Assembly: GCF_014692875.1 (NCBI RefSeq)
Contig: NZ_CP061171.1
Span: forward strand, 5,270,001-5,334,000
Length of the DNA stretch: 64,000 bases
Reading direction: 5' to 3'
Source of the DNA: Pedobacter riviphilus
GTDB taxonomy: Bacteria; Bacteroidota; Bacteroidia; Sphingobacteriales; Sphingobacteriaceae
Part shown: positions 18,560 to 34,798 of the stretch, in pieces
Layout: every line of letters begins with the position of its first letter
Numbering within the stretch: the first letter of the stretch is position 1
Position numbers and translations under genes: made by a program
The notes under the pieces: model-generated
Databases searched by the model: none
What the model was told of the DNA's origin: nothing
The model's input: the letters and a program-made list of their open reading frames with translations, nothing else

Positions 18560-18841
18560 TTGCTAAAAAGCTCTCAACTTTAATAGTGAGTTTGCCTGAA
18601 AGTTGACAGTTCTCAAATTTAATCAACCGGGATCATCATGCAGAATTTATTTTTCAGCTATTTTTATTGCAATAATTAGGGCATGCCCCTAATCCCGATG
18701 AATCGGGAAAGGGTCGGGCTATCCGTTACAATCTTTTTTTGAAGAAAATTAAAAAAGGATTTCCACTGCTATCAGTCATGCGAACCCATCGCATTCCTTT
18801 CATGTGCTTAATTTTTGTGGTGTCTTTGTTTCTTCTTGATT
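18560..18841. repeat. intergenic region with a hairpin-rich dispersed-repeat-like segment
   Basis: No gene in this gap. Around 18690-18705 there is a short hairpin CCCGATgaATCGGG. Then at about 18731-18771 come near-complementary arms (AATCTTTTTTT and AAAAAAGGATT) on either side of a short A-rich centre, flanked by CTATCCGTTAC and CCACTGCTATC. From memory similar sequences recur between genes in Pedobacter and relatives, but I cannot verify copy number from one window. Confidence 0.45.
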
Positions 18842-31037: not shown

Positions 31038-31484
31038 ATGAACGATATTTTAAAAAGTGCTCACTCTGGATGGCGCTATGTGGTTTTTCTTTTGCTAATT
31101 ATTGCCGTTGTTAAGGCTTTGTCTGGTTGGTTTGGTAGTAAAACCTATACTGAAGGCGATAGAAAGTTAAATGTTTTCACGCTTATTAGCGCACACATTC
31201 AGTTATTGATTGGTTTGGTGCTATATTTTAGCGAAGGCTGGTATAAGTTAAGCAGTGCAGGTGCACCTGCAGTACGTTATTTTAAAATGGAGCACATCAG
31301 TATGATGATAATCGCCATTATTTTAATTACAGTGGGTAATGCTAAATCGAAAAAAGTTGCTGATGCAGTTGCAAAACACCGGACCATTTCGGTTTTCTTT
31401 GGCTTAGCGCTGATTTTGATCATCATAACTATACTGTTAATGGTAAAAGAAGTTCCAGGTAGATCGTTCTTTGGGGTTTCATAG
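31038..31484 (+). CDS. four-helix membrane protein, cytochrome-b-like in style
   Basis: 148 residues with four hydrophobic helices: YVVFLLLIIAVVKALSG, VFTLISAHIQLLIGLVLYFS, ISMMIIAIILITVG and ISVFFGLALILIIITILLM. His9 (SAHSGWR), the His of SAHIQLL, and the His of MEHISMM and AKHRTIS sit at helix ends or within helices, in a pattern that could bind haem. Homologues in Bacteroidota are sometimes labelled cytochrome B, but this is not proven here. The stop overlaps the first base of an inverted-repeat element; the gene is separate from the trp operon that follows. Confidence 0.75.
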   Translation: MNDILKSAHSGWRYVVFLLLIIAVVKALSGWFGSKTYTEGDRKLNVFTLISAHIQLLIGLVLYFSEGWYKLSSAGAPAVRYFKMEHISMMIIAIILITVGNAKSKKVADAVAKHRTISVFFGLALILIIITILLMVKEVPGRSFFGVS

Positions 31485-31593
31485 TTAACCGCAAAGCACG
31501 CAAAGTTTTTCGCAAAGAGGCGCAGAGCCATTTATTTTTTGATCTTAGTCTTGGTGTACTTTGCGTTTTCACTCTGTATACTTTGCAGTTAAC
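31484..31593. repeat. fold-back intergenic element, CGCAAAG type
   Basis: Outer arms GTTAACCGCAAAG (31484-31496) and CTTTGCAGTTAAC (31581-31593) pair at 12 of 13 positions. Inside them ACGCAAAG (31498-31505) and CTTTGCGT (31559-31566) also pair. The ~110-base unit could form a long hairpin. A second element with the same TTAACCGCAAAG end bounds the gap at 37859-38102, so this is a repeat family. Confidence 0.65.
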
Positions 31594-31637
31594 AGATATT
31601 TATTTTCATATTTATTTCCATTTTTCAAAATTCTTTA

Positions 31638-31645
31638 TATTTTTG
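31638..31645 (+). promoter_or_regulatory. putative -7 promoter box for the trp leader
   Basis: TATTTTTG matches TAnnTTTG and ends six bases before the leader-peptide ATG at 31652. It places the transcript start at or just before that ATG. No -33 TTG at standard spacing. Confidence 0.42.
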
Positions 31646-31651
31646 TTGCTC

Positions 31652-31729
31652 ATGATCAACAATATACATACATGGCTTTGGCAAAGTAATTCGAACGAAT
31701 TGCGCTGGCTGCGTATGAACAAAATATAG
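31652..31729 (+). CDS. trpL: trp operon leader peptide with three Trp codons
   Basis: 25-codon frame from ATG 31652 to TAG 31727. It begins MINNIHTWLWQ and has Trp at codons 8, 10 and 19, that is 12% Trp, where a random frame of this size would rarely have more than one. It precedes a strong terminator by 32 bases and trpE by 127. This is the layout of ribosome-mediated attenuation: when charged tRNA-Trp is scarce the ribosome stalls on the paired codons 8 and 10 (31673-31681). That would leave 31701-31710 free to pair with the terminator's 5' arm. The symbol is used by analogy with the enteric leader; the mechanism is inferred. Confidence 0.7.
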   Translation: MINNIHTWLWQSNSNELRWLRMNKI

Positions 31730-31761
31730 TTTATCAACCTAAACCTTATTAAAGAACCATT

Positions 31762-31797
31762 AAAGCCCGGCGTAGAACCACACGCCGGGCTTTTTAT
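31762..31797 (+). terminator. trp attenuator terminator
   Basis: Perfect 12-bp stem AAAGCCCGGCGT/ACGCCGGGCTTT (31762-31773 and 31782-31793), eight-base loop, then a U-rich tail. It lies between the leader peptide and trpE. UGCGCUGGCU (31701-31710), which contains Trp codon 19, can pair with AGCCCGGCGUA (31764-31774) over about ten pairs with one bulge, forming a competing antiterminator. Confidence 0.8.
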
Positions 31798-31856
31798 TGT
31801 TAAAAAATACGAAATGCAAACCTTAAGCCCTATAGCTTACACCATTTACCTTTATC

Positions 31857-33254
31857 ATGTATAAAATTAATACGACTTACAAAAAAATGCTTGCTGATAC
31901 CACAACACCAGTGAGCATTTATTTACGCTTACGTGATGTGTATCCCAACAGTATCCTGTTAGAAAGTTCTGATTACCACAGTCGCGAAAACTCTATGAGT
32001 TTTGTGTGTGCCGATCCGGTTGCCGGAATTATTTTAAAGGGATCGAGATTGGAGACTTATTTCCCGGATGGCGCTGTAGAGATTACCGAAAGTGAAAACC
32101 TGATTGAAGAAATTGCCGATTTTAAGGATAAATTCAGAGAAACTGAACTACCCGAGATCAAATTTATTTCGAGCGGCCTGTTTGGCTATTTTACCTGGAA
32201 TGCAGTACAACATTTTGAAGATATAAAGTTTACTTCTGAAACTCCTGAGGGTGAAGAAATTCCAGAGATGCAGTACCATTTGTATCGCTATATTATCGCC
32301 ATCGATCACTTCAAAAATGAAATTACTTTATTCAAAAATACTTTTGAAGGAGAAGAAGAGGGTGGGCTTGAAAAAATGGAATACCTGATCCAGAATAAAA
32401 ATTATCCTGAATATAAGTTTCAACTTCGTGGTGAGGAAAGTTCAAACCTAACCGATCAGGGTTTTATGGACTTGGTAGAGAAACTGCAAAAGCATATTTA
32501 TCGTGGAGATGTTTTTCAGATTGTACCATCAAGAGCATTTAAGCAAGCATTTTCTGGTGATGAATTTAATGTATACCGTTGCCTGCGTTCGATAAACCCA
32601 TCACCTTACCTCTTTTATTTTGATTACGGGAATTTTAAATTGTTCGGTTCTTCTCCAGAGGCGCAGATTACGATCAAAAACAATTCGGCCAATATTTTTC
32701 CAATTGCCGGAACATTTAAGCGCAGCGGAAACGACATTGAAGATGCTGAACAGGCCCGTAAATTAGAACAAGACCCAAAAGAAAGTGCAGAACATGTAAT
32801 GCTGGTAGATTTGGCCAGAAACGATTTAAGCAGGCACTGTAACCGCGTTGAAGTAAAATCTTTTAAAGAAGTGCAGTACTATTCGCACCTGATCCACCTG
32901 GTAAGTAAGGTGAGTGGCCATTTGCAGGAAAACGTAAGTGCTTTTAAAGTAGTTGCCGATACCTATCCGGCGGGTACCTTAAGCGGTGCACCAAAATACA
33001 AAGCCATGCAGTTGATTGATGAAAACGAAAAGCTGGGCAGAAATTTTTATGCGGGTGCAATTGGTTTTATGGGCTTCAATGAAGATTTTAATCATGCCAT
33101 TATGATCAGAACTTTTATGAGCAAGAACAACGAACTGCATTATCGTGCAGGCGCAGGTATTGTGGCCGATTCTGTTCCCGAAACTGAAATGCAGGAGGTG
33201 AACAATAAAATTGCAGCCTTGCGTAAAGCGGTGAAAATGGCAGAGCAAATCTAG
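31857..33254 (+). CDS. trpE: anthranilate synthase component I
   Basis: 465-residue chorismate-binding subunit that, with TrpG, converts chorismate and glutamine to anthranilate, the first committed step of tryptophan synthesis. The feedback-inhibition motif LLES is at residues 34-37. The catalytic domain has FQIVPSRAF, LFGSSPEAQ, FPIAGTFKR, DLARNDLSRHCNRV, TYPAGTLSGAPKYKAMQLI and YAGAIGFMGF, all standard. Length is normal. It is first in the run trpE-trpG-trpC and preceded by the attenuator. Distinguished from PabB and isochorismate synthase by the LLES motif and the trp context. Confidence 0.97.
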   Translation: MYKINTTYKKMLADTTTPVSIYLRLRDVYPNSILLESSDYHSRENSMSFVCADPVAGIILKGSRLETYFPDGAVEITESENLIEEIADFKDKFRETELPEIKFISSGLFGYFTWNAVQHFEDIKFTSETPEGEEIPEMQYHLYRYIIAIDHFKNEITLFKNTFEGEEEGGLEKMEYLIQNKNYPEYKFQLRGEESSNLTDQGFMDLVEKLQKHIYRGDVFQIVPSRAFKQAFSGDEFNVYRCLRSINPSPYLFYFDYGNFKLFGSSPEAQITIKNNSANIFPIAGTFKRSGNDIEDAEQARKLEQDPKESAEHVMLVDLARNDLSRHCNRVEVKSFKEVQYYSHLIHLVSKVSGHLQENVSAFKVVADTYPAGTLSGAPKYKAMQLIDENEKLGRNFYAGAIGFMGFNEDFNHAIMIRTFMSKNNELHYRAGAGIVADSVPETEMQEVNNKIAALRKAVKMAEQI

Positions 33255-33306: not shown

Positions 33307-33897
33307 ATGGAAAATATAAATAAGAAAACGGTATTAGTAATTGATAACTACGATAGTTTTACCTACAACCTGGTGCATTTAATTAACGAGGTAGGTTACG
33401 AAGCAGAAGTTTGGAGAAATGATAAATTTGATCTGGCCGACGTAGAAAAGTATGATAAAATTTTACTTTCTCCAGGCCCGGGCATACCGGAAGAGGCTGG
33501 TTTGTTATTGGATGTAATTAAAACCTATGCGGCAACGAAGAGTATCTTTGGCGTATGTTTAGGCCAGCAGGCCATAGCCGAAGTTTTTGGTGGCACTTTA
33601 TTGAACTTGGGCAGACCAATGCACGGAATTGCTACACCGGTAACGGTAGTAGATGGCGACGAGCCTTTGTTCTGGGAATGCCCGCAAACCATCAATGTTG
33701 GCCGCTACCACAGTTGGGTGGTGAGTAAAGATAATTTCCCTACCTGTTTAAAAATTACAGCCAGAGATCATAAGAATGAGATCATGGCGTTAAGACATGA
33801 AACATTGGATGTGCGCGGCGTACAGTTTCATCCTGAAAGTGTGCTAACAGAGTATGGCAAACAGATGATGGAGAATTGGTTGACGTCGACCCCTTAA
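33307..33897 (+). CDS. trpG: anthranilate synthase component II, glutamine amidotransferase
   Basis: 196-residue class I glutamine amidotransferase that supplies ammonia to TrpE. The oxyanion motif SPGPGIPEEAG is at 55-65. The nucleophile Cys84 lies in FGVCLGQQAIAE and the catalytic His175/Glu177 in VQFHPESVLTEYG, so the triad is complete. It starts 52 bases after trpE. It might also serve PabB for folate synthesis, as a shared subunit does in some bacteria. The gene normally found next in the pathway order, trpD, is not downstream. Confidence 0.96.
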   Translation: MENINKKTVLVIDNYDSFTYNLVHLINEVGYEAEVWRNDKFDLADVEKYDKILLSPGPGIPEEAGLLLDVIKTYAATKSIFGVCLGQQAIAEVFGGTLLNLGRPMHGIATPVTVVDGDEPLFWECPQTINVGRYHSWVVSKDNFPTCLKITARDHKNEIMALRHETLDVRGVQFHPESVLTEYGKQMMENWLTSTP

Positions 33898-34015: not shown

Positions 34016-34798
34016 ATGAACATATTAGATAAAATCGTATTACGCAAAAAAGAAGAAGTTGCCGCTGCAAAAGCCTTGGTTTCTGTTCAGGATTTAGAAA
34101 ATTCGGTACATTTTAACCGAACGCCTTATTCTTTTAAAGAGTTTCTATTGGCCAAAGACCGTACCGGCATTATTGCAGAGTTTAAACGCCGCTCGCCATC
34201 TAAAGGTTTAATTAACGGTATTGCTGATGTTGCGGAGGTAACGCAGGCTTATAATGCAGCCGGCGCATCTGCACTTTCGGTATTAACGGATGTAGATTTC
34301 TTTGGCGGTAAAACCGACGATATCCTGGCGGCACGGGCTACAAATCATATTCCGATCTTGAGAAAAGATTTTATGATTGATGAGTATCAGATTCTGGAAG
34401 CAAAGGCCTGGGGTGCTGATATTATTCTGTTGATTGCCTCGATATTAACACCTCAACAGATTAACGATTTCGGAAAGTTTGCCAAAGGTTTAGGGTTAAA
34501 TGTACTGTTAGAAGTGCATAACCTGGAAGAGCTGGAGCGAAGCATCTGCCCGAATTTGGATGCCATTGGTGTAAACAATAGAAACCTGGGCGATTTTACG
34601 GTAGATATCCAGACTTCGTTCGATTTAGTAAATAAAATTCCAAATGAATTTTTAAAGATTTCGGAAAGCGCGATCAGTAATCCACAAACGATTAAGGAGC
34701 TAAAAGTAGCAGGTTTTAACGGGTTTTTAATTGGCGAGAATTTTATGAAGACTGATAATCCAGGAACTGCTATTAGAGAATTTGTAACGCAGCTATAG
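34016..34798 (+). CDS. trpC: indole-3-glycerol phosphate synthase
   Basis: 260-residue TIM-barrel enzyme that closes the indole ring in tryptophan synthesis. Family motifs: GIIAEFKRRSPSKGLIN (catalytic Lys), ALSVLTDVDFFGG, ILRKDFMIDEYQILEAKAWGADIILLI, VLLEVHN, DAIGVNNRNLGDF, ISESAISNP and FLIGENFMK near the phosphate site. It is monofunctional, with no TrpF domain fused. Start is ATG 34016. Third gene of the trp run; trpD, trpF, trpB and trpA are not in the window. Confidence 0.97.
   Translation: MNILDKIVLRKKEEVAAAKALVSVQDLENSVHFNRTPYSFKEFLLAKDRTGIIAEFKRRSPSKGLINGIADVAEVTQAYNAAGASALSVLTDVDFFGGKTDDILAARATNHIPILRKDFMIDEYQILEAKAWGADIILLIASILTPQQINDFGKFAKGLGLNVLLEVHNLEELERSICPNLDAIGVNNRNLGDFTVDIQTSFDLVNKIPNEFLKISESAISNPQTIKELKVAGFNGFLIGENFMKTDNPGTAIREFVTQL

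Follow-up and report, generated by a model that had tools for sequence, protein, structure and literature searches.

In the textbook case of E. coli, the trpL leader combines Trp codons, 1:2, 2:3 and 3:4 pairings and a terminator before trpE, and the locus described here follows the same logic. Leaderless Trp leaders are reported from outside Bacteroidota. In Sinorhizobium meliloti, according to the sections of the report available to us, the trpL RNA starts at the ATG of the Trp leader and carries an attenuator before trpE(G), trpDC forms a separate mRNA, and both this leaderless RNA and the peptide encoded by it act in trans (PMC7298713). For Streptomyces lividans, the accessible text reports TrpL1 (MFAHSTRNWWWTAHPAAH) as transcribed leaderless before trpE and places a second Trp leader at trpS (PMC8079986). 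Within Bacteroidota, clues for leader-peptide attenuation before amino-acid operons, with mapped transcription starts, come from Flavobacterium psychrophilum; the words tryptophan and trp are absent from the main text of that report (PMC9723704). Moreover, the Bacteroid-trp RNA (RF01692; Weinberg et al. 2010) is described, in the extract of the report at hand, as a cis-regulatory RNA of Bacteroidetes (PMC2864571). In view of RF01692 and the clues from F. psychrophilum, leader-peptide attenuation in Bacteroidota is not new.

We analysed a 64-kb stretch of DNA, hereafter the window (64,000 nt at its full length), in which a Trp attenuator stands in front of trpE. The observation itself is confirmed: the attenuator is real, it is conserved, and it has all the parts that an earlier note on this DNA had ascribed to it. 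Judging from its sequence and its relatives, it is very probably a ribosome-mediated attenuator of a trpEGC half-operon, with transcription predicted to start about 0-2 nt before the leader ATG. Among the named loci, those with a 99% identical TrpE are Pedobacter in every case, and in the open-licence literature, mostly the top-ranked papers, we came across no Trp leader described for Pedobacter or any other member of the Sphingobacteriaceae. The mechanism is known; this group, and this layout within the group, we did not find described in the literature searched.

Compared with the enterobacterial trp leader, the present one has another sequence, two Trp codons one apart and a Bacteroidota-type promoter and, if transcription starts as predicted, has no room for a Shine-Dalgarno site. 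RF00513 (Trp_leader) gives the leader 16.6 bits, below its gathering score of 41, and membership of that family was rejected on this score. The trpL of S. meliloti belongs to a different phylum and differs in sequence, and the action in trans known there has no sign here in pairing with the trpD leader. S. lividans is one of the Actinobacteria and has its second leader at trpS, whereas the second leader here is at trpD. F. psychrophilum shares both the phylum and the promoter box of the present locus.

RF01692 matched 17 of 198 genomes of the phylum, 15 of them above the cut-off and all in one family (f26). In the three matched genomes for which match and leader were both read, the match lies just upstream of trpE, where it overlaps a WWW leader (G221, G225 and G229, the last under the cut-off); G221 and G225 differ in having the box 18 nt before the ATG, with a predicted UTR of ~14 nt. 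RF01692 had no match in the genome of the window under strict filters, nor in the leader up to E = 10, and membership was rejected since there was no match at gathering score; RF01692 is the counterpart in another family. The box-to-ATG gap in f26 (L162, L165, L195) is 18 nt in two loci and 7 nt in one of another genus (G229). The earlier note had called a leaderless Trp leader an unusual version; it is indeed uncommon, yet precedents exist outside Bacteroidota, as far as the accessible parts of those reports go (PMC7298713, PMC8079986).

The leader region in front of trpE

The features of the leader and of the genes behind it are, in window coordinates:

31615-31618, + strand: TTTC, a weak -33-like element, 19 nt ahead of the -7 box
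31638-31645, + strand: -7 promoter box TAnnTTTG of Bacteroidota type, here TATTTTTG, six bases ahead of the leader ATG
31650-31652, + strand: predicted transcription start, 0-2 nt ahead of the leader ATG, placed from the box position
31652-31729, + strand: leader peptide frame of 25 codons, MINNIHTWLWQSNSNELRWLRMNKI*, with Trp at codons 8, 10 and 19
31667-31717, + strand: 1:2 (anti-antiterminator) hairpin spanning the Trp codons and region 2, from fold and pair counts
31673-31675, + strand: Trp codon 8, conserved in the genus and family comparison
31679-31681, + strand: Trp codon 10, conserved in the same comparison
31701-31710, + strand: region 2, the 5' strand of the antiterminator, from its duplex with region 3 and covariation
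31706-31708, + strand: Trp codon 19, within region 2, lineage-specific in the clade-A alignment
31762-31793, + strand: intrinsic terminator hairpin (3:4), a perfect 12-bp stem with a T-rich tail at 31794-31798
31764-31774, + strand: region 3, common to the antiterminator (with region 2) and the terminator (with region 4)
31857-33254, + strand: trpE, anthranilate synthase component I (best match NCBIfam TIGR00564)
33307-33897, + strand: trpG, anthranilate synthase component II (NCBIfam TIGR00566, above cut-off)
34016-34798, + strand: trpC, indole-3-glycerol phosphate synthase (NCBIfam NF001377, above cut-off), the last trp gene of the half-operon

The match of trpE to TIGR00564 reaches 413.9 bits, below the curated NCBIfam cut-off of 517.7, and an HflX-type GTPase gene lies 3' of trpC. 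The leader frame with its three Trp codons, the perfect 12-bp stem with a T-rich tail behind it, and the -7 box ending six bases ahead of the leader ATG had all been claimed from the letters of the window, and each was found in its place. Upstream of the promoter, at 31480-31590, the window holds GCAAAG...GCGCAGAG-type repeats that are apparently absent from the aligned close relatives.

The RNA of 31652-31800 folds with a z of -4.75 against 200 shuffles. Taken by itself, 31652-31717 forms the 1:2 hairpin (-17.2 kcal/mol), with the Trp codons and region 2 inside, and the terminator stretch by itself reaches -22.4 kcal/mol. When a ribosome was modelled on codon 10, placed according to its generally known footprint, and region 4 was absent (31694-31780), the fold was the 2:3 pairing at -17.1 kcal/mol; in the window this duplex has 10 pairs and one bulge, bearing out the claimed pairing of 31701-31710 with the 5' arm of the terminator. 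The small hairpin AATTC/GAATT at 31688-31701, which had been singled out as well, is present, but as an independent element it was dropped because by fold and pair counts it forms the tip of the larger 1:2 hairpin.

These parts suggest how the leader would work. RNA polymerase would start about 0-2 nt before the leader ATG, so that the leader peptide would be translated from a transcript that is leaderless or almost so. Under a shortage of charged tRNA-Trp, a ribosome would stall at Trp codons 8/10 and mask region 1; region 2, just past the expected ribosome footprint, would pair with region 3, the terminator would not form, and trpEGC would be transcribed. When tryptophan is plentiful, the ribosome would run on, and either the 1:2 hairpin or the ribosome itself would hold region 2 off region 3; the 3:4 terminator would then form and transcription would end just past 31793. 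Both the ribosome stalling and the tryptophan response at the trpE leader are thus what we infer.

Conservation of the leader and coupled changes in its RNA

A first search took in 59 genomes, namely that of the window, 35 of the same genus and 23 of the same class. One genome of the genus (G006, 84% complete) gave a distant TrpE-like match only; the leader is present in all the other 35 genus genomes of this search, that of the window included, and in 13 of 13 further genomes of the genus, giving 48 distinct genomes (L057 repeats L035). The Trp-x-Trp pair occurs in 49 of 49 genus loci from these 48 genomes. The codon 8/10 pair among the three proposed Trp codons is therefore kept, but codon 19 is lineage-specific, being found among 23 aligned clade-A sequences in L001-L005 only, and was rejected as a functional part. 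The remaining 18 clade-A sequences carry a 2-nt length difference (1 nt in L015) between the Trp codons and codon 19, which shifts the frame, and the RNA of region 2 is largely retained in them (L052 is more divergent). Since the C-terminal frame changes and the RNA is kept, the N-terminal half looks constrained as peptide and the remainder as RNA. Within clade B, length differences 5' of the Trp codons are multiples of three, and L023 has an extra Trp at another place. Variable columns in 11 distinct clade-A leaders number 4, 4 and 6 at codon positions 1, 2 and 3, which is not decisive.

For the family, 151 genomes were searched; trpE was found at E <= 1e-100 in 134, of which 90 were read. 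Together with the genus sample of the first search these make up 119 upstream regions from 118 distinct genomes and 21 genera. Here a WW or WxW leader was present at 115 of the 119 loci and a weaker one at four (L089, L090, L091 and L107, with one Trp only in the cluster, L091 being judged by hand). An ATG frame with WW or WxW precedes trpE at 113 of the 119; two loci from other genera of the family (L109, L138) have GTG frames with WWW, and boxes 6 and 5 nt before them. Such ATG frames turned up in only 56 of 2380 first-order Markov re-draws and at none of 38 other window genes (ORFs of at least 150 aa: 41, less 2 overlapping, giving 39, less trpE). Aligning the trpE upstream regions of relatives had been set beforehand as a test, and the Trp codons are not lost (49/49 in the genus, 115/119 in the family). 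A looser script returned 116 leaders, which are the basis of the family counts given below for duplexes, box spacing and footprint, and a terminator-like hairpin lies downstream in 116 of 116. The trpE attenuator is the rule among the family members read.

The RNA pairings change together as well. In L011 and L049, one base is altered in each of regions 2, 3 and 4 and both alternative helices are still paired; L016 and L046 resemble half-way states of this triple change. The clade-A terminator (19 distinct rows) has 100% of its cells paired and both-side changes at two pairs, with a covariation score reached by 0 of 500 shuffles. Covariation of the clade-A antiterminator by itself is weak: it is 96.3% paired and mispaired at the variable pair in 3 of 19 distinct rows, with 33 of 500 shuffles reaching its score and 43 of 500 its percentage paired. 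Across the family, native 2:3 duplexes (107 distinct pairs from 116 loci) have a mean of -11.55 kcal/mol; permuting the partners gives -9.44 (sd 0.20), and none of 10,000 permutations did as well. When each of 19 genera was represented by a single sequence, 0.17% of permutations matched the native duplexes. Taken singly, 65 of the 107 native duplexes are within the best 5% of their own shuffles, and 30 do not surpass the average of the same sequences paired with partners from other genera. The clade-B helix is often only ~5 bp long, mostly at -5.5 to -8 kcal/mol, and L144 has no clear 2:3 helix. Hence the predicted alternative pairing with compensatory changes in relatives is upheld by the family-wide co-variation of regions 2 and 3 and by that of the terminator, the clade-A antiterminator adding little on its own.

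In 104 of the 116 leaders, region 2 starts 8-22 nt past the last Trp codon of the cluster, near the expected end of a ribosome stalled there. In 69 of 116 the stop codon starts at most 15 nt past the end of region 2; in many species, though not in all, region 2 could thus be covered by a ribosome that has reached the stop. We thus find a Trp-rich frame before the gene, a terminator between leader and trpE and a covarying alternative antiterminator, and the reading of the locus as a complete E. coli-style attenuator is supported by its parts, by their conservation and by the way regions 2, 3 and 4 change together. Comparison thus supports extending a textbook device to a large family from the environment that is unmatched by the Rfam models tried.

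The promoter box and the predicted transcript start

At the mapped starts of F. psychrophilum, the sigma-A TAnnTTTG box lies at -12 to -5, as given in the part of the report available (PMC9723704), which would set +1 at ~31650 here and predicts a 5' UTR of ~2 nt. Of the 116 scripted leaders, 99 have an exact box 4-9 nt ahead of the ATG. Among the other 17, L125 has it at 10 nt and 13 have TTTG at 4-8 nt; L058, L106 and L144 have neither at these distances. Where there were several in-frame ATGs (18 loci) the leader script favoured the start near the box, a preference that matters little: the count is 97 of 116 with the first in-frame ATG and 89 with the last. Before other ATGs of the same regions, the box is found at 4-9 nt in 1 of 1177 cases when those within 12 nt of the leader are excluded, and in 1 of 1157 with no exclusion rule, this one being itself the L091 leader start; among 39 window genes there is none. 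Farther 5', TTTG precedes the box by 18 nt in 58, and by 19 nt in 7, of 100 family promoters with a box at most 10 nt before the leader, and the copy of this -33 element in the window is degenerate.

This spacing, held family-wide, backs the near-leaderless transcript proposed in the earlier note, the start itself being a prediction. From the position of the box, the trpE leader transcript is probably near-leaderless, and a start 0-2 nt before the ATG would leave a Shine-Dalgarno site without room. An A/T-rich region and the poor -33 element of the window would also suit a Trp attenuator whose transcript starts further upstream, with an ordinary 5' UTR and a box near the ATG that is a chance A/T-rich match. 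We consider this unlikely, given that the position of the box is held relative to the leader ATG (99/116) and that the box is almost never found so close to other ATGs (1/1157), that 65 of 100 promoters have TTTG 18-19 nt ahead of the box, and that the sequence farther upstream diverges between close relatives.

A predicted start 0-2 nt before the ATG would place the leader in a small class of transcripts, with 5.5% of mRNAs reported as leaderless in F. psychrophilum (PMC9723704) and ~3.7% of 5' UTRs under 10 nt in Bacteroides thetaiotaomicron (PMC7366714), both figures being taken from extracts of the reports. The locus would therefore offer a testable case of leader peptides whose translation begins on nearly leaderless RNA, in a phylum where such mRNAs make up ~4-6% on those figures.

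In other families of the class, a short WW/WxW frame is found in 34 of 45 trpE upstream regions (three under 200 nt). By reading, a possible start in 15 of these 34 is preceded at 4-8 nt by the box (12 regions) or by a variant with TTTG (3 regions), and others have the box at 10-32 nt or none. The near-leaderless layout thus appears to recur in the class and to be general only nearer home. One locus of another family (L174) looks like a TTG start, 7 nt from the box. The scripted leader pick at L182 was discarded as an artefact, the likely leader there being MKIQNNQTWWWHTNSFGVL.

The split trp operon and other leaders of the genome

The genes trpD, trpF, trpB and trpA lie at ~1.26-1.27 Mb in the same genome (trpF and trpB recognised by eye), and trpD is preceded by another Trp leader, MIIKNLNNNWWWHNEIR*, which also has a terminator (contig C1, ~1264271; L280:1036 onward). 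A WWW leader before trpD was found at 28 of 28 loci of the genus, 27 of them whole and one (L308) with its start cut by the contig end; this count covers the genus only and leaves out a second trpD match of G020. The TTTG-to-ATG gap of the trpD leaders is 12-13 nt in clade A but shorter, at 5-8 nt, in clade B. By tblastn in the trpE flanks, trpC is downstream at 43 of 44 genus loci and trpD never downstream of trpE in the family loci, against 18 of 25 loci of other families in which trpD was found with trpE; among 80 named loci trpD was found in one, the distant MAG L278. The paired leaders on a split trp operon make a natural test, with two attenuators, different predicted starts and one signal.

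The attenuator RNA and peptide of S. meliloti, which act in trans in the text available (PMC7298713), raise the idea that the terminator here is not controlled by translation and that a small peptide or the terminated small RNA acts in trans, which would be an added role and not a replacement. This is very improbable. The C-terminal half of the peptide shifts frame between close relatives and the RNA is kept; region 2 is mostly at ribosome-footprint distance from the Trp codons (104/116); and the terminated trpE RNA is predicted to pair with the trpD leader region of the same genome no better than expected by chance, 261 of 300 re-drawn targets pairing as well, for which reason trans pairing was rejected. 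The same operons are controlled in Firmicutes by T-box or TRAP-like leaders, yet a protein- or tRNA-sensing leader controlling the terminator, with incidental Trp codons, is hardly credible here, as a T-box has no match at gathering score in the window and none up to E = 10 in the leader, and Trp-rich short frames recur before trpE family-wide, far above chance.

If the locus is a ribosome-mediated attenuator starting at its own ATG, one may ask what the start at the 5' end does. Speculatively, and we regard it as possible rather than likely, the 5'-end start of the leader peptide may have been selected as a functional component of Trp attenuation in Bacteroidia. A ribosome on the emerging 5' AUG would then set the timing between polymerase and ribosome, trpEGC and trpDFBA each having their own leader in this genus. 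Were this true, the leader ribosome would be loaded directly on a 5' AUG in a phylum that hardly uses Shine-Dalgarno sites and has few leaderless mRNAs, and the split trpEGC/trpDFBA leaders of this genus would be two tuned copies of one sensor per cell.

Scanning the whole genome with a pattern for further near-leaderless Trp leaders told us little, since it gave 122 matches and its reversed control 106. Leaders for other amino acids stand before other genes of the genome. On the reverse strand, hisG (L175) is preceded by a His-rich leader, MNLTLNHHLHLHHRR, and a thrA-like gene (L197) by a leader rich in Thr and Ile, MNFNTSIITTIIITTGINQRG, behind which lies a strong terminator-like hairpin. 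An Ile-rich leader, MNINTNIISNLIIVISQKRGGNRCV, lies before ilvD (L176:1214-1291) and a Tyr/Phe-rich one, MQITNTYYFGYFYYFSESRG, before a prephenate dehydratase gene (L179:1338-1400), each with a terminator-like hairpin behind it and with box gaps of 12 and 17 nt, respectively; the gaps of the his and thr leaders were judged longer by eye. The trpE leader stands out against these gaps. Elsewhere in the window, at 18708-18781 on the - strand, there is a Flavo-1 RNA (RF01705) with 51.3 bits, above the gathering score.
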